Source: Nitrososphaeraceae archaeon
GTDB taxonomy: Archaea; Thermoproteota; Nitrososphaeria; Nitrososphaerales; Nitrososphaeraceae
DNA length: 53,626 nucleotides
Assembly (NCBI GenBank): GCA_021325295.1
Contig: JAJPHM010000015.1
Location: forward strand, 1-53,626
Direction: 5' to 3'
The notes under the pieces were generated by a model. The model saw only the letters and a program-made list of their open reading frames with translations. It was not told the origin of the DNA and did no database searches. This document shows, in pieces, positions 20,843 through 39,541 of the stretch. The number at the start of each line of letters is the position of its first letter. Within the stretch, counting starts at the first letter, position 1. Position numbers and translations under genes: made by a program.

Positions 20843-22080
20843 CAGTTGTAGCCAATGCAAGCCTTCTGCTTGGAAGGAGCCTTTCCTTTGTCGACAAAGG
20901 ATTTATCGAGATTGAAGGCGGAATCATAAAAAGTGCAGGACGTGGAGAGTACAAAGCCCGATCGGATTGCCGCATAATCGATGCAAAGAGCCTTTTGGTG
21001 CTTCCGGGGTTTATCAACGCCCACACACACATTGCAGACTCGATAGGAAAGGATATCGGAATCGATTCCGGCCTAGACGCGCGTGTTCATCCGGTCTTTG
21101 GAGCCAAAAAGAAAATTCTAAACAAAAGCAGGCCAGAGCACCTGAAAGCATTCATCAGAAGCTCCGCCATTTCCATGATGAGCAAGGGAATAGTGGCCTT
21201 TGCAGACTTTAGGGAAGGCGGATTGCAGGGGCTTGAGCTTTTGCAGGACGCAATTTCAGGATTGCCGGTCAAGTGCATAAAGCTTGGCAGAATAGATATC
21301 TACTTTAAACCCGGGACTGCAGACAGGCTGTCTACAGAGTCACTGCGCCAGGCAAGAAGCGTATTTGAAGCGGGAGACGGCCTTGGCATCAGCGGGGCAA
21401 ATGAAAATACAGATGGTTCGCTTGAGCAGTATGCCAGTCTCCGCAGAAGATTGAGGTTGGGGTTGAGAGGCATACAGCCTAGAAACAGCAAGAAAAAGCT
21501 GATTGCCATTCATGCTGCAGAGTCTGCAGATACTATGAGCCGCTCAAAATTCAGCACAGGAAGAACCGAGGTTGAAAGAATTATGGATCACCTGAAACCT
21601 GACTTTATTGTACACATGACAAACGCCAGCGACCATGACATATCGCTTGTAGCAGAGAGCGGAACCGGCGTGGTGATCTGCCCCAGGGCCAACGGCGCAC
21701 TCGGAGCAGGTCTGCCTAGAGTAGCCAAGATGCTGAAGAGCGGCTGTCTTCTGGCGATAGGGACAGACAATGTAATGCTAAATTCGCCTGATATTTTCAG
21801 GGAGCTTGACTATTTATGGAAAGCCTGCAGGGCAGTAGAAGGAGTGCTTGTCGATCCAAAGGAGCTACTGAAAATGGCAACAGTCAATGCCGCCGAGATA
21901 TTGGGATTGAATTCAGGCTGCATAGAGGCCGGAAGGGCAGCTGACCTGATGTTTGTCGACAAAAACCATATCGACCTGTCTCCTGTTCACAACCCATATG
22001 CATCTCTGGTCCACAGAGCCAGCCAGAGCTCGATCAGGGCCCTTATGATAGACGGCAGGTTTGCAGGAGAAATTGATTAA
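20833..22080 (+). CDS. Deaminase-type amidohydrolase in the riboflavin operon
   Basis: 415-residue amidohydrolase-superfamily enzyme. Metal and catalytic residues are complete: His64 and His66 (NAHTHIADS), His227 and Glu230 (IHAAES, the HxxE signature), His261 (VHMTNASDHD) and Asp312 (GTDNVM). HxxE together with a single-metal pattern and no strand-4 carboxylated Lys is the signature of the deaminase branch (cytosine and guanine deaminase, AtzA/TrzN). It overlaps arfA by 10 bp. In the archaeal route the reduced pyrimidine must lose its 2-amino group, a guanine-deaminase-like reaction for which, to my knowledge, no archaeal enzyme is assigned. I infer this protein as a candidate. ArfB-type formamide hydrolysis is the alternative. 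Confidence 0.8.
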   Translation: MSLTVVANASLLLGRSLSFVDKGFIEIEGGIIKSAGRGEYKARSDCRIIDAKSLLVLPGFINAHTHIADSIGKDIGIDSGLDARVHPVFGAKKKILNKSRPEHLKAFIRSSAISMMSKGIVAFADFREGGLQGLELLQDAISGLPVKCIKLGRIDIYFKPGTADRLSTESLRQARSVFEAGDGLGISGANENTDGSLEQYASLRRRLRLGLRGIQPRNSKKKLIAIHAAESADTMSRSKFSTGRTEVERIMDHLKPDFIVHMTNASDHDISLVAESGTGVVICPRANGALGAGLPRVAKMLKSGCLLAIGTDNVMLNSPDIFRELDYLWKACRAVEGVLVDPKELLKMATVNAAEILGLNSGCIEAGRAADLMFVDKNHIDLSPVHNPYASLVHRASQSSIRALMIDGRFAGEID

Positions 22081-22118
22081 TTATTTGAGAATATCGCTTC
22101 CAACAAGCGTCTAATGCA
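22073..22118 (+). repeat. Left end repeat of cassette 1 (L1)
   Basis: 46-bp sequence matching 38246-38291 at 44 of 46 positions by hand alignment. It starts ttgattaatta, contains the small inverted repeat gcttccaacaagc and ends ctaatgca. Its first eight bases include the TAA stop of the amidohydrolase gene, so the cassette sits flush against that gene. Confidence 0.85.
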
Positions 22119-22335
22119 CCAAAAGCGTTGCATATGTTGTTGCATAGGTGCTGAGCTGCAGATTAGCCCTGAAAATACATATTTACTAAACTTTTACTTC
22201 AGCAATCATCAAGCAATACTAACAATTTTTCCGACTTTATTATTGAGGAGCGTTACTACAGAAATCCTCTGTCTTATACAAGGTATAATAAGACTTAATA
22301 CCAACAGAATCAATAGATATCTGGAGAAGAATAAG

Positions 22336-22491
22336 ATGGCCTTAAAGGAAGTCCCCCCATTAACTAAGGAACAATACAAATTCGTAGTTGACACTCTCCA
22401 GAAAGAGGAGAAGAATCCAAGTAAGGCACGTATTTCCAGAATCAAGGCTGCAAGAATCCGAGCAGCTAATATGAAAGTGGTTTACCACTAA
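22336..22491 (+). CDS. Putative antitoxin of a GNAT toxin, 51 aa
   Basis: Small, strongly basic ORF starting ATG 22336 (MALKEVPPLTKEQYKF) with a C-terminal helix rich in Arg, Lys and Ala (KARISRIKAARIRAANMK). Its stop lies 6 bp before the acetyltransferase start, the usual gene order of GNAT-type toxin-antitoxin pairs. I do not recognise a DNA-binding family, so the antitoxin role is inferred from context only. The open frame extends 74 codons upstream, but that part is not protein-like (CICCCIG). Confidence 0.55.
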   Translation: MALKEVPPLTKEQYKFVVDTLQKEEKNPSKARISRIKAARIRAANMKVVYH

Positions 22492-22497
22492 CCTTTA

Positions 22498-23007
22498 TTG
22501 GGTAAACGACTTAGTCCAGATGATTTTGAACCACACTCATATACAACCCAATTTAATCTGGATGATTTTAAATGTCAAGATAAGGCATTTGAAAAATATC
22601 TGAAGAAGGAGGCTCAAGTAGATCATAACACGAACATTGGTCGGGTCTTCTTGATGGTGGAAAAGAAGACGAAAATAGTGGTTGGATTTGTTACACTTGC
22701 AATGGGTCATCTTCCAAAGAAAGAAGGTGTTGATGGTAAGCCTAGTACCAGATACGCAACAATTCCGGGCCTATTGCTAGGACAACTTGCTGCACATAAA
22801 GAGTATAAGGGAATGGGAACACTACTTCTGGATTTTGTGATAAACCATACATTAGAATTGTCTCAAAAAGTAGGATGTCGTATAATCTATGTCCATTCCG
22901 TAAAAGGAAAGGAATGGTGGTATGAAAAGAATGGCTTCACTCTGGTCAAGGATAGTGAACGCACGTTCTTCATGGATCTGTTCCTAGACGAACCTGAAAA
23001 GTATTAG
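22498..23007 (+). CDS. GNAT acetyltransferase, TacT/AtaT-like toxin candidate
   Basis: 169 residues with the GNAT order: KIVVGFVTLAMG, then IPGLLLGQLAAHKEYKGMGT (acetyl-CoA loop, here K-G-M-G), LVDF-type helix, and the terminal IIYVHSVKGKEWWYEKNGF. The opening FKCQDKAFEKYLKKEA and the WWYEKNGF end match GNAT toxins that acetylate the aminoacyl group of charged tRNA and stop translation. The start is TTG, 6 bp after the small basic ORF. The pair is the only cargo between repeats L1 and R1. The toxin role is inferred; the enzyme fold is well supported. Confidence 0.8.
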   Translation: MGKRLSPDDFEPHSYTTQFNLDDFKCQDKAFEKYLKKEAQVDHNTNIGRVFLMVEKKTKIVVGFVTLAMGHLPKKEGVDGKPSTRYATIPGLLLGQLAAHKEYKGMGTLLLDFVINHTLELSQKVGCRIIYVHSVKGKEWWYEKNGFTLVKDSERTFFMDLFLDEPEKY

Positions 23008-23057
23008 GCATATCCTCTCACAGCAGGGGGCTCATCAGAATTCAATGACTAACTGTT

Positions 23058-23128
23058 TGTTGCATATAATATTACTCCTAGTCCGACCGCATCTTGTTGT
23101 GCAACAAAATCGAAAGATAATTAATTGA
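23058..23128 (+). repeat. Right end repeat of cassette 1 (R1)
   Basis: 71-bp sequence matching 39471-39541 at 69 of 71 positions by hand alignment. It contains the inverted repeat ttgttgtgcaacaa and ends in agataattaattga, which resembles the start of the left repeat. The reductase gene of the riboflavin pathway starts 34 bp after it. Confidence 0.85.
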
Positions 23129-23881: not shown

Positions 23882-24400
23882 TTATTTTCTGCTAGAGATA
23901 TCAGCCGAGATATGCTCTATCTTGTAGCGTAGCGCTTCCTTCACTTTCGTGTTGTCAACCATATTCAGTGGGCCTTTGCAGTTGGGACATTTGAAAAATA
24001 ATTCTACAGCAGAGTCAAATTTGACCCTCGGGCAGTCCCTGTTGCCGCAATGGTAAAATTCGGCGGATTCTTCGTATTCGAGGCGCTTGTTGAGCCTGTC
24101 AAGTATCTTTTTCTTCTGGTTCTCAATGAAATTGTCTACTTGGTCCTGCTTTGCCCTCCATCGGTACACAAACCAGCCCTTTTTCTCGTCCTTGACCCTG
24201 ATACCACTTATCAGAGCCTTGCCAAACATGTCATAAAGCACTTTGCGGACAATGTTTATTCTCAGACCAGTTGCGCTCGCAATCTCCTCGTCTGTAACAT
24301 CTTCAGTATTCAAAAGAGCCCGGGCTACCTTGACGTATTCCTCGCCGCCGATCAAGCCTGCAATCTTTACAAAAGAGTCCTCGTATTCTACTGAGCGCAT
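23882..24400 (-). CDS. tfe: Transcription factor E, alpha subunit
   Basis: Helps open promoters together with TBP, TFB and RNA polymerase. The 172-residue protein has an N-terminal winged helix (VARALLNTEDVTDEEIASAT through INIVRKVLYDMFGKALISG), a charged linker helix and a C-terminal zinc ribbon with four cysteines (YHCGNRDCPRV and FFKCPNCKGPL). Motif order and size match archaeal TFE. It is transcribed alone; the left 74-bp inverted repeat lies 107 bp upstream of its start. Confidence 0.95.
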   Translation of the reverse strand: MRSVEYEDSFVKIAGLIGGEEYVKVARALLNTEDVTDEEIASATGLRINIVRKVLYDMFGKALISGIRVKDEKKGWFVYRWRAKQDQVDNFIENQKKKILDRLNKRLEYEESAEFYHCGNRDCPRVKFDSAVELFFKCPNCKGPLNMVDNTKVKEALRYKIEHISADISSRK

Positions 24401-24506
24401 TGTGTGTATAACCTGAAATCTAGGTCATTTTTTGGATATATATTTACCGCATGAAAGCAGAGACGAAGTAACTATTAGCTACTTGCAGCTCCATATACAT
24501 CCAAGG

Positions 24507-24580
24507 GTATAGACAAGGAGGCACCTTTGTCACCGTCACTATCGTATTGACGATAGTATGCACTAAAGCTTAAAGCTAGA
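24507..24580. repeat. Left 74-bp inverted repeat (IR-L)
   Basis: Matches the reverse complement of 26781-26854 at 73 of 74 positions by hand alignment. It contains an internal perfect hairpin, actatcgt-attg-acgatagt (24538-24557). The two copies face each other around the exported-protein pair at 24.9-26.5 kb. The similarity ends abruptly on both sides. Confidence 0.9.
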
Positions 24581-24870
24581 TTCCATTGTACCAATATAAT
24601 TTCAGTGTTTTGTCAGTGGCTTGGTAAATAATCAGACAAGCAATATGACAAGATATCCTCCGCAAGGACTCAATGGCAGGCGTATAAATACCCATTCTGA
24701 AATGAACGCGCGTATGTTAACCCACATGCCGTGGTCAAAGCGAGCTGAATATCCTGTTCAGTAACGTGAAAATACTGCTCGGTCTGAAAAATAATTAATA
24801 AAGGTTTTGCAACGAATCTGCTGAAATCCACTCCACAAATTTTTAAAATATTCATTTTCATGTGGTAACA
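24581..24870. other. Intergenic sequence inside the inverted repeats
   Basis: 290 bp with no convincing ORF above 40 codons. It ends with a TATA-like ttttaaaata at 24841-24850, about 25 bp before ATG 24871, giving a probable leaderless start for the small ORF that opens the exported-protein operon. Confidence 0.45.
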
Positions 24871-25011
24871 ATGGTGAAGATAAAGTTCGGCACCATAAGT
24901 GTTCCTACGAGCCACTTTTTGTTGCTGTTGTCTACTGACAGCACTGGTTCTAGGAAATCTAAACAAACTGCAATAGCACAGAAATCAATTAGCACAGGAA
25001 GCAGGCCATAA
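24871..25011 (+). CDS. Small ORF of 46 aa opening the exported-protein operon
   Basis: ORF from ATG 24871 (MVKIKFGTISVPTSHF) with a hydrophobic patch (FLLLLST) and a Ser/Lys-rich tail. Its ATG is at leaderless distance from a TATA element. Its stop lies just before a strong Shine-Dalgarno sequence (aaggagg, 25011-25017) of the next gene. It may be a leader peptide or a small exported protein. No family recognised. Confidence 0.35.
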   Translation: MVKIKFGTISVPTSHFLLLLSTDSTGSRKSKQTAIAQKSISTGSRP

Positions 25012-25023
25012 AGGAGGATTAAG

Positions 25024-25632
25024 ATGAGAGGACCTGCTAAAGTGTTTGTAGTCGTCATAGTCGCCATTGCAGCATCTGCAGCTGGAGTCTATGCATATGA
25101 AGACGCAGGTAAACCAACCGTCTCGTCGACAGCATCTTCAAGCCAAATCAATAGCCCGCCAAACCAAGTCTCCCAGATTACTTGGGTTGGTCCACACGAT
25201 TTCAAATTGGCCCAAAATTCTACGACTCTGAACGTAGCTCCTGGCTCCAATGTATCTGGTTCGATACCCGTCCAAGTACTGAACAACGCATCAACAATAT
25301 TCTATGTGGCCGATGAAGGACTTAATACAACAAAATCAGTTCTGCCGTCAGGAATTTCTGTATCATTGCATCCCTATGGAAAACAGTATCAACCTCAGCG
25401 TTCATCGCAGATTGGAGAAGCAAATTCAAGCAAACTTGCCACAATTCCCACTGTCGCAACTACGGTAGGTAACACCACAATACCATACACAATCTCAGTA
25501 GCAAGCAACGTACCACCTGGTACATATAGTGTAAAGATAGCTCTTGCGAGCCTAGTCAAGAATCCTATTGATTCTGCCAAGATTGGCATACACGAGAGCA
25601 GAGTTTTCGGAGTGAACCTGAATGTCACATAG
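25024..25632 (+). CDS. Membrane-anchored extracellular protein, unknown
   Basis: 202 residues: a short basic N-terminus, a signal or anchor helix (VFVVVIVAIAASAAGVYAY, about 7-25), then a beta-rich extracellular part with NVAPGSNVSGSIPVQVLN and VASNVPPGTYSVKIAL, which reads like one immunoglobulin-type fold with several N-glycosylation sites (NST, NVS, NAS, NTT). A clear Shine-Dalgarno sequence precedes ATG 25024, a feature rarely seen elsewhere in this window. It overlaps the next gene by 11 bp. The 49.3-kb protein has the same architecture and ending (PHGTYDVDVLAV). Confidence 0.75.
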   Translation: MRGPAKVFVVVIVAIAASAAGVYAYEDAGKPTVSSTASSSQINSPPNQVSQITWVGPHDFKLAQNSTTLNVAPGSNVSGSIPVQVLNNASTIFYVADEGLNTTKSVLPSGISVSLHPYGKQYQPQRSSQIGEANSSKLATIPTVATTVGNTTIPYTISVASNVPPGTYSVKIALASLVKNPIDSAKIGIHESRVFGVNLNVT

Positions 25633-26497
25633 ATTTGATAAAAAGATGTTTTCCAGTGTTGGCATTGCTCTGATCTTGACAATACTTATCATCCCTTACA
25701 CTGGTGTAAACCAAGCTGCTCTTGCCGCAAGTATTGACAACGGCTTTGCGAATGGCGTATACTATAGATATAGCGGCAGTGGAACCACTGACTTTAACTT
25801 TTACTTCTACAATAACGGCTTTTCGTCAAGCAATGGCAACCCTGAACAAATCGTATTGACTGCCACCACGAGTCAGGGAACAGGAGGAATAGCATACCAG
25901 ATCTCAATCTTCATCTATAGTAGTACCAACGTGCAGTTAGACGATGAGGCTTGGGACCTATCCACTGGTACATGCTGTCTATTTCATACGGATACCGCAG
26001 TTTCAGGAATTCCAAATAGCTGGCATACAATAGAACTCAAAGACTTTCTGTCTGGAGGCCAATATTATATTGGCTATTATCTGGATGGAACACGGCACAA
26101 CTCATGGGTTGCTCAATCTTCATTTGACTCACACATGGTGCCATCTATTGTACTGGAATCCGCAGATTATTCAACATCTGACTGGAATTCACACACGGCA
26201 CAAGGATACCTTGAAACTGGAAGTACAGGGTTGAACACGTATTTCTATGGTGGCGCTTGGGGAGCATCTAACGCTGCGTGTAGCGTTTCAAGCTACCAGA
26301 GTAGTGGATACTATGTTGGACAAGGAATACAAGATCCAAATAATGTCGGCACGACAGGTCATATCTTGACAGGGTACGGCACTAATAACGAACTCGCGTT
26401 GGGCGATACATACACCTCACTTGCAATAAACGACCAAATAGAGAAGGATGCCAATAGTGGCTTTGGATATAATCCCTGCAACACCGCAATAAGCTAG
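25622..26497 (+). CDS. Exported Tyr/Ser/Gly-rich beta protein, unknown
   Basis: 291 residues with a signal peptide (VGIALILTILIIPYTGV, about 13-29, then AALAAS as a possible cleavage site). The mature part is beta-rich with many aromatic and small residues (DFNFYFYNNGFSSSNGN, GGQYYIGYYLDG) and a few cysteines (GTCCLF, AACSVSS, YNPCNT) that could form disulfides outside the cell. It overlaps the anchored protein gene by 11 bp, so the two are co-translated and may form a surface complex. A U-rich tract (ttttttctttttttc) follows the gene. Fold resemblance to the G1-like protein at 13.8 kb is possible but weak. Confidence 0.7.
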   Translation: MSHRFDKKMFSSVGIALILTILIIPYTGVNQAALAASIDNGFANGVYYRYSGSGTTDFNFYFYNNGFSSSNGNPEQIVLTATTSQGTGGIAYQISIFIYSSTNVQLDDEAWDLSTGTCCLFHTDTAVSGIPNSWHTIELKDFLSGGQYYIGYYLDGTRHNSWVAQSSFDSHMVPSIVLESADYSTSDWNSHTAQGYLETGSTGLNTYFYGGAWGASNAACSVSSYQSSGYYVGQGIQDPNNVGTTGHILTGYGTNNELALGDTYTSLAINDQIEKDANSGFGYNPCNTAIS

Positions 26498-26517
26498 ACA
26501 AAAGCTGAAGTACCTCC

Positions 26518-26536
26518 ATTTTTTCTTTTTTTCGGA
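26518..26536 (+). terminator. T-rich terminator after the exported-protein operon
   Basis: ttttttctttttttc runs from about 26519 to 26533, just behind the last stop codon. Poly-T tracts are the usual archaeal termination signal. Confidence 0.55.
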
Positions 26537-26780
26537 GTGCAATTCTTCGAGTTGACCGAAGGTCTCGTTTTCGTTACCAAATTATGTTAGACCTAGTTCA
26601 TAATGCCTGCACATCCATATCCTATACTGCATGCGCAAGGTCAATCCCAATCCAGATAATTCTTTATTGACATTGTTTCATGCAGGGAGCTGCAGGCAAC
26701 AGCTATACTGCTGGCTTGCTGCTCTTTTGTCTTCCTCAGATTCCTTTGGCTCCAAATCTTTCTCGATTAGTATACCACGG

Positions 26781-26854
26781 TCTAGCTTTAAGCTTTAGTG
26801 CATACTATCGTCAATACGATAGTGACGGTGACAAATGTGCCTCCTTGTCTATAC
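26781..26854. repeat. Right 74-bp inverted repeat (IR-R)
   Basis: Reverse complement of 24507-24580 with one mismatch. It lies in the intergenic space behind the exported-protein pair and 33 bp from the 3' end of the response-regulator gene. The region 26537-26780 otherwise shows no gene. Confidence 0.9.
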
Positions 26855-26886
26855 TCCCGCATATACATATATACACACATGCAGCC

Positions 26887-27309
26887 CTAGTTGATGCTGT
26901 CGCATTCGTACGACTGCAGGGCAGTGCGCACTTTGGAAATAACCTCATTGATAGACAGTGGCTCCTTCTTTATCACATCGTTTCTCTCAAGAGACCCAAG
27001 AAGCTTTAGGGCATTGTAGCACACATCCGGGCTCAGCAGGAACATGAACTTGATCTCTTCGTCCAAGCACTTTATCCTCCGGTAAAGGTCAAACCCAGTT
27101 ATTCCGCCGCTCATGACAAGATCTGTAATAACCATTCTGTACCTGACATGATCGGCAAATACCAGAGCTTCAGACGGGCTGGCTGTGTGGTCGATGCTGT
27201 ATCCACAAGCTCTGAGATACAACTTCATAAGGTCGGCTGTATTTTTCTGCTGGTCAACTAGCAGAATTGATTGTTGCAACCTCTTCCGTTCCTCAATGTG
27301 ATTTCGCAA
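26887..27309 (-). CDS. Stand-alone response-regulator receiver protein
   Basis: 140 residues with a receiver fold and no output domain. Phosphorylation site: Asp63 in MVITDLVMS. Ser93 (LLSP) replaces the usual Thr/Ser switch, and Lys114/Lys115 stand for the conserved lysine. The acidic pair before the site is reduced to Asp19-Gln20 (LLVDQQ), so metal binding and phosphorylation may be altered. No histidine kinase is nearby. The role is unknown; single receivers in archaea can act through protein contacts. Confidence 0.8.
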   Translation of the reverse strand: MRNHIEERKRLQQSILLVDQQKNTADLMKLYLRACGYSIDHTASPSEALVFADHVRYRMVITDLVMSGGITGFDLYRRIKCLDEEIKFMFLLSPDVCYNALKLLGSLERNDVIKKEPLSINEVISKVRTALQSYECDSIN

Positions 27310-38245: not shown

Positions 38246-38291
38246 TTGATTAATTAATTGAGAATATTGCTTCCAACAAGCGTCTAATGCA
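38246..38291 (+). repeat. Left end repeat of cassette 2 (L2)
   Basis: Matches L1 (22073-22118) with two changes. It lies 34 bp behind the polD2 stop, so this cassette also sits just past the end of a housekeeping gene. Confidence 0.85.
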
Positions 38292-38481
38292 TTGCAAGCT
38301 TTTTACTTTATGTCAAGGTAGCAGTCAGGTTCGAAAAAGGATTTTCGGAGATAGACAAAACAAGCTGCCTTAATGGAAAGACTAGAATATATGCGCTAGG
38401 AGACTGAGTGTACTTTAATGGACACTCATTACACCTGTTCAGATATACAGTGTATACCGTATACATATTTGTATATACACC

Positions 38482-38848
38482 AATGTATAAATACTCCACT
38501 ATTCATAAGATAAATGCAGAATTGAGTATTCTAAAACGCTCAAAGGCAAAGAACAGAATCACTCCAAGAAAAAGCCGTTCATTGCCGTCTTCACGTAGAC
38601 AGATCATGCCTCGCCTTGACACCTTGGAAATGATAGAAGATACCATTAGAAAAGAGCAATACTTTGAATCAAAGACCAAGCTCTGGAAGGCACTTCCAAG
38701 AGGAGTCCAGTACGGAACACTTGGCATAGCACTTGACTATCTGGAAAGGTCAAACAAGATAGCACAGAACAAGGATGGCTCAATAGTCTGGATATTTATA
38801 GAAGGCGAAAGGGCAAGAAAGTCTCTGGAAGAATCGACAGAGCTATAG
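38482..38848 (+). CDS. Small HTH-like protein, cassette 2 cargo
   Basis: Start at ATG 38482 (MYKYSTIHKI) or ATG 38608 (MPRLDTLEMIEDTIRK). The conserved-looking part is the last 80 residues: YFESKTKLWKALPRGVQYGT, IALDYLERSNKIAQ and the wing SIVWIFIEG, a probable winged helix. The upstream 40 residues are very basic. TATA-like tatatacacc and a palindromic AT-rich tract lie at 38445-38475. It converges on the RelE-like gene with no bases between the two stops. It could be the antitoxin or an independent regulator. Confidence 0.6.
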
Positions 38849-39181
38849 CTACGTTGTGCTGTAGCCAAACAACGTATCATATTCTTTGTGTGTAAGCAAG
38901 TCTGGCAGCTGGTAAACCTTGTCCTCTTTTCTACCTCGGATAGTGTAGATTAGCCTGTGGTTGCCGCCGATCTCGCGTCTGTACAGGTTGGTTACCTCAT
39001 GAGTTTTGACATATCTGTCAGGCCACGGCTTTCTCTTGATATAGTCTCCAAGGTTCTTATCCTGTTTCATTTCGTCTATTATTCGATCGACTCGGAGTTT
39101 TATTGGGTCGTTATCTGACAGAATTTTAAGAACATCTAGGACATCTGGTGACGCAAAAACGCGGAACTTTCTCTTACCCAA
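38849..39181 (-). CDS. RelE/ParE-type toxin candidate, cassette 2 cargo
   Basis: 110 residues with the RelE-fold order: FRVFASPDVLDVLKIL, a helical region, IKRKPWPDRYVKTHEV, then LYRREIGGNHRLIYTIRG and a final KEYDTLFGY. The RLIYTI strand preceded by basic residues, and the terminal Tyr, are typical of the mRNA-cleaving toxin fold. No gene overlaps or directly precedes it on the same strand, so a classical antitoxin operon is missing. The convergent HTH gene is the only partner candidate. Confidence 0.75.
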   Translation of the reverse strand: MGKRKFRVFASPDVLDVLKILSDNDPIKLRVDRIIDEMKQDKNLGDYIKRKPWPDRYVKTHEVTNLYRREIGGNHRLIYTIRGRKEDKVYQLPDLLTHKEYDTLFGYSTT

Positions 39182-39228
39182 TAGCTTGTGGAGTCAGTAA
39201 ATGCATCTACTTATGCTTTTGTCTACTA

Positions 39229-39378
39229 ATGCGTAAAGGACGGGTAACAGCAAATCGATATGACATGCTGAAACATGATCTTCAGTCATGGTCAGAAGCA
39301 CAAGCTTATGGCAGATGGCTATATACCAATGAAACTATGACGATACTGAAGCTGATTAAAAGTAACCTGCATCTTTGA
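39229..39378 (+). CDS. Hypothetical 49-aa protein, cassette 2 cargo
   Basis: ORF from ATG 39229 (MRKGRVTANRYDMLKHDLQS) with aromatic-rich AYGRWLYTNETMTIL and a helical end. It is divergent from the RelE-like gene and lies inside the L2-R2 unit. No family recognised; it could be a small antitoxin. Confidence 0.4.
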   Translation: MRKGRVTANRYDMLKHDLQSWSEAQAYGRWLYTNETMTILKLIKSNLHL

Positions 39379-39470
39379 CACGCAACTTTTGACATGCGAG
39401 AACTCGGCAATGTAGATGCGAACCCGTCAATTTACCGATTACACCACCAGATTTGAATTCTTTCATTAGA

Positions 39471-39541
39471 TGTTGCATATAATATTACTCCCAGTCCGAC
39501 CGCATCTTGCTGTGCAACAAAATCGAAAGATAATTAATTGA
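39471..39541 (+). repeat. Right end repeat of cassette 2 (R2)
   Basis: Matches R1 (23058-23128) with two changes over 71 bp. It precedes the m4C-type methyltransferase gene. Confidence 0.85.

Follow-up and report, generated by a model that had tools for sequence, protein, structure and literature searches.

Positions 24504-26858 of the window (the whole 53.6-kb stretch of DNA that was analysed, contig C61 of genome G000) very probably hold a casposon-type element of about 2.35 kb that is non-autonomous and carries cargo genes. Casposons are transposons using a Cas1 enzyme related to the Cas1 of CRISPR immunity. The terminal inverted repeats (TIRs) of the element are homologous to those that bound complete elements with target-site duplications in other genera, casposase fragments lie in sister elements, and the same end motif is found on complete casposons. 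Its ends are of the casposon type, it contains no intact casposase and its sister copies carry casposase remnants; as it lacks both a casposase and a family B DNA polymerase (PolB), we class it not as a casposon but as a non-autonomous casposon derivative. The copy in the window was presumably inserted by a casposase and may still be able to move. The host belongs to the Nitrososphaeraceae, a family of ammonia-oxidising archaea; its genome (2.69 Mb, 99.7% complete) is the sole one of its genus in our comparison.

Terminal repeats, cargo and locus

The inverted copies at 24507-24580 and 26781-26854 were identical at 73 of 74 positions and lay 2200 bp apart, as the initial annotation had reported. 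The two arms matched each other in self-BLAST at 98.6% (E 4e-31) and lengthened to 88 nt at 92% with looser extension. They were confirmed as real and not due to chance. The internal hairpin that had been noticed in each repeat (ACTATCGT/ACGATAGT) was present in both arms, with a folding z of -3.6 as DNA and -1.2 as RNA. In its full extent the left TIR (c1, + strand, terminus AGGGTATAGACAAGG) spans 24504-24585 and the right TIR (c2, - strand, terminus GGGAGTATAGACAAGG) spans 26771-26858; both were matched by the hidden Markov models (HMMs) described below. At the outer borders of both TIRs is an exact 9-bp direct repeat, CATATACAT, the candidate core of a target-site duplication (left copy 24492-24500, right copy 26860-26868, neither assigned to a strand). 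A common stretch of at least 9 bp arose in 183 of 200,000 draws of AT-matched random flank pairs (p about 1e-3), and the duplication amounts to this core, about 10 of 13 positions, in AT-rich sequence, set against the 13-15 bp of casposons. Rfam gave no match on the repeat region, no tRNA was found in a search of the window, and the window form of the repeat, used as an exact pattern, had no match in the viral and GTDB contigs scanned.

The enclosed segment was found to hold the small ORF, the anchored protein and the Tyr-rich exported protein described initially, all on the + strand: a 46-aa ORF that opens the unit (24871-25011, recognized from sequence only and assigned to no family), the 202-aa protein P1 with an N-terminal anchor (25024-25632), and the 291-aa Tyr-rich exported protein P2 (25622-26497), which overlaps P1 by 11 bp. 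P1 and P2 are most likely exported proteins that form the cargo of the element, and we infer that this cargo is selected. No homologue of P1 was found in the 70 family genomes searched, and none of P2 in that number of family genomes or in Pfam, PHROGs or PDB sequences; neither protein scored above the cutoff against Pfam. A low-confidence single-sequence AlphaFold model of P1 (mean pLDDT 52.7) suggested beta strands, and the single-sequence models of both proteins were too poor for use. No similarity to Cas1 was found inside the element, which thus lacks the Cas1-family casposase gene of casposons, and with the 46-aa ORF, P1 and P2 as its only contents it also lacks their family B DNA polymerase gene.

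In several related genomes the genes for the transcription factor TFE and a response regulator lie close together without P1/P2, and in most of them the space between is taken up by an adenylate/guanylate-cyclase-like gene and a small ORF; in the window, the repeat-bounded unit occupies this interval. Since the interval of the relatives differs in this way, P1/P2 arrived in the host lineage. The cyclase gene and small ORF of the relatives are absent at window positions 24400-24507 and 26869-26887. No clean empty site was found in close relatives, whose interval holds these two genes, and the host genome contains no ortholog-level match of the cyclase (best 48% identity), so that insertion and gene loss are confounded at this locus.

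Other repeats occur in the window. Two cassettes, at 22073-23128 and 38246-39541, share ends of 46-57 bp on the left and 71 bp on the right at 97% and carry a GNAT-type gene with a small ORF and a HigB/RelE-like gene with a 146-aa ORF. These ends recur several times in Nitrososphaera genomes, and a ~450-aa gene beside some of them looks like a putative tyrosine-type integrase. Short direct-repeat pairs (92%) at 45001-45061/50266-50325 and 45926-46000/48354-48428 lie around exported-protein genes and have no further copies in the genome.

The repeat family and complete small elements in Nitrososphaerales

A genome search for further copies of the 74-bp sequence had been proposed as a check, with a lack of other copies counting against the initial reading; other copies do exist. 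One more clear copy was found in the own genome by BLAST (C66:1177-1230, 80%), and a profile search added two (C15:97535, E 2e-11, designated c4, and C20:1057, E 2e-5). The first profile, based purely on the sequences of three copies, also matched an N. evergladensis-like copy and reached into further families of the order; with a second profile, of 11 copies, 21 of the 400 Nitrososphaerales genomes sampled gave a match at E <= 0.01. An independent nhmmer HMM was built of 13 copies from other genera only, without any copy from the window or from G000. It matched the right arm at E 9.7e-6, the left arm at E 1.2e-5 and the C66 copy at 3.1e-6; the C20 copy, the weakest member of the family, was not recovered.

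Four complete small elements of 1.1-2.5 kb were found, in each of which an inverted TIR pair is immediately flanked by direct duplications. The element of Nitrosarchaeum sp. nzgw8 (1.23 kb, exact duplication core TCAACATTTAA) carries a SIR2_2 gene and a truncated RHH gene, that of Thaumarchaeota archaeon 13_1_20CM_2_39_20 (2.54 kb, TAAATGTTAAG, exact) a TIR-domain gene and an RHH gene, that of Ca. Nitrosotenuis chungbukensis MY2 (1.18 kb, TAAATTTTTAC, exact) a small winged-helix protein and an exported protein, and that of G084 (1.08 kb, duplication 10/11) an exported protein. The exact duplications of these sister elements measure 11-13 bp, or about 13 bp if the terminus is counted as GGGG only. 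Similar elements in G169 and G187 are each split over two contigs, and G053 has one clear end and carries an HNH gene and an OLD-like ATPase gene. No intact casposase or transposase was noticed in the complete small elements on inspection by eye. Among the options raised at first, that of a mobile unit with long terminal repeats is the one supported: homologous pairs bound complete elements with duplications and share homology with the ends of casposons.

Small elements or single ends of the casposon type recur just upstream of prs (L116, L169, L171, L167, L168) and of a gene for a LEA14-like exported protein (L164, L165, L163, L125). They come from different genera, and in several of them the end lies ~33-36 bp before the start codon, a position which suggests that the promoter may be the target.

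Casposon ends, casposase remnants and target sites

Casposon ends were defined by inverted repeat and duplication at 32 loci around casposase-like Cas1 genes without use of the window sequence, which was compared with them only afterwards. Eight of the 32 loci were of the GGGG type, with casposases mostly of ~400 aa and, at most ends, a TTTGACC-type box following; the end reads GGGGTATAGACAAG in G132, GGGGTAAAGACAG in G151, G125 and G260, and GGGGTATAGATG in G146 and G138, with related forms in G281 and G154. Seven other casposase loci had a different, CCCC-rich end, and the rest were without definable ends. Complete thaumarchaeal casposons have a length of 12-16 kb, with casposase, inverted ends and duplications. 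A casposon-end HMM was made from the GGGG-type group, the CCCC type being left out by a choice made after seeing the ends. This HMM ranked the window arms first and second in the 53.6 kb, each on its own a weak match (left, E 0.028; right, 0.077; that is, about 0.03 and 0.08), with 11.7 and 10.3 bits vs. 9.2 bits for the best of 60 shuffled windows. It matched the end of the G429 element at 2.5e-6 and L204 at 1.8e-5, so that the TIRs of the element, weak as each arm is alone, connect to those of casposons through a chain of profile matches; the E-values given throughout belong to individual searches and not to one planned test, since patterns and thresholds were changed along the way. The casposon idea came up once two profile searches had been made and 12 casposase loci had been scanned with the full-length TIR model, which found no match in them; the part common to the window-family TIRs and casposon ends is only the terminal ~30 bp. 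Single 12-mer matches in L201 and L208 were at chance level and were discarded.

C-terminal remnants of the casposase (Cas1) were present together with family TIRs at four loci: with a TIR in L204 (E 3e-80) and G169 (E 1e-6), inside the element in G429 (E 3e-10), and in G053 (E 2e-19) with the TIR on the same 3.5-kb contig. Copy c4, the N. evergladensis-like copy and L204 are located at tRNA 3' ends or tRNA-like 3' fragments, in the order T-loop motif, 8 bp, 14-bp slot, GGGG. The identical spacing was seen at the casposons L202 and L214. No second copy of the duplication was found for these three family members. The published target of the A. boonei casposase shows this spacing too, with TCAAATC 8 bp upstream of the target-site duplication (PMC6614799), and casposons of Thaumarchaeota insert at tRNA and protein-coding genes (PMC6563490). 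A tRNA trailer or att-site reading of the repeat was dropped, as the casposase target spacing explained the tRNA position. Relatives of the RHH gene next to c4 were found at two casposase loci, L228, which is a CCCC-end casposon, and L206 (E 7e-25). Several copies are followed by RHH genes, and the repeat was therefore also considered as an RHH operator or promoter; this reading was given up since other RHH orthologues are without the repeat and duplications accompany the repeats.

There are two Cas1 genes in the host genome. One, on C29, is of CRISPR-type length, and the other (G000:C79:27142-28269) is casposase-like and located directly after the EF-2 gene. Its flanks resemble the other, non-GGGG end type, and the one casposase-like gene of the host seems to belong to the type with other ends. 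A casposase with ends matching the window element was not found in the host genome, so the window copy may be immobile now.

Proposed movement, rival readings and significance

In the proposed mechanism, a Cas1-type casposase would bind both of the ~75-90 bp TIRs, which start with the (A/G)GGG(A)TATAGACA motif of casposon ends and keep a TTTG..ACC box. The enzyme would excise or copy the unit, carrying P1/P2 along, and joining of the ends to new target DNA would give a target-site duplication of ~13-14 bp. As the element itself contains no casposase or polymerase, movement would need a casposase acting in trans, and without one the copy would be stranded.

The absence of a casposase from the element, and the different end type around the casposase of its own genome, would also suit a TIR-bounded non-autonomous transposon moved by some other, DDE-type transposase, its likeness to casposon ends being convergent. 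The duplications of the small elements, 11-13 bp, are likewise slightly below the 14 bp typical of casposons. We consider this origin unlikely, since casposase fragments accompany the TIR at four family loci, complete casposons bear the same end motif, the tRNA-target spacing is that of the casposase, and nothing transposase-like was seen by eye in the complete elements.

Near-perfect inverted arms with internal dyads around a surface-protein operon could also point to phase variation of a surface complex, in which the P1/P2 unit would be inverted between the 74-bp repeats by a site-specific recombinase. Such an invertible segment, one of the options raised initially, is the least probable of the readings: a recombinase was seen neither in the element nor among the neighbouring ORFs of the window, several homologues of the arms are single copies, and elsewhere homologous pairs enclose unrelated cargo with target-site duplications, which mark transposition. 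The composite of two small elements is disfavoured. Two independent insertions of ~90-bp miniature elements, or a local inverted duplication of one, might flank P1/P2 by chance, given that the end sequence also occurs alone (C66, C15, C20) and that the arms differ beyond 74 bp; this is very improbable, as the arms are 73/74 identical while the next copy reaches only 80%, the direct repeat is present at both outer borders, and at least four other genomes show such an inverted pair around a single cargo unit. A composite IS transposon was rejected, the flanking copies being ~75-90 bp, non-coding and without a transposase gene.

The non-autonomous casposon derivative resembles thaumarchaeal casposons that encode a Cas1 casposase and PolB (complete examples in G132, Nitrosarchaeum nzgw8, G125 and G260) in the end motif GGGGTA(T/A)AGACA with the TTTGACC-type box, in inverted termini and a candidate target-site duplication, in the tRNA 3'-end target spacing of related copies, and in the RHH gene near an end of some. 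It differs from these 12-16 kb elements in its size of 2.35 kb, in having neither casposase nor PolB, in its cargo of two exported proteins, and in the imperfect duplication. Like MITEs and cargo-carrying non-autonomous insertion sequences, it is TIR-bounded, without a transposase and of low copy number; unlike MITEs, it carries full genes, and the ends and remnants of its family point to Cas1 rather than to a DDE transposase. A further counterpart in structure is the synthetic mini-casposon of Methanosarcina mazei, in which TIRs starting with GGGATATAG, as in the M. mazei casposon with its 14-bp target-site duplication, surround a casposase-less cargo; such cargo-only constructs were translocated in vivo, with the mobilising factors provided from other places in the cell (PMC10359463). 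That element was engineered, whereas the one in the window occurs naturally and is presumed to be mobile or to have been so. In a limited search of the open literature, no description of natural non-autonomous, miniature or casposase-less casposons was found, and novelty is thus provisional.

It is possible, though we advance this only tentatively, that ammonia-oxidising archaea have a general system of gene delivery in natural, cargo-only derivatives of casposons, in which Cas1 casposases move defence-type (SIR2, TIR-domain, HNH with OLD-type ATPase) and surface-protein cassettes in trans, some of them repeatedly to ~33-36 bp upstream of the start codons of the same housekeeping genes, such as prs, where the duplication might restore the promoter. 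With the matched sets of complete casposons, remnants, cargo-only elements and target sites, trans-mobilisation and the choice of target become open to direct testing. Cas1, the adaptation enzyme of CRISPR, is considered to derive from casposons. If it is true that casposases move small cargo in trans in nature, as happened with the engineered mini-casposon in M. mazei, Cas1-type enzymes would be gene shuttles and not only integrases of self-propagating transposons.
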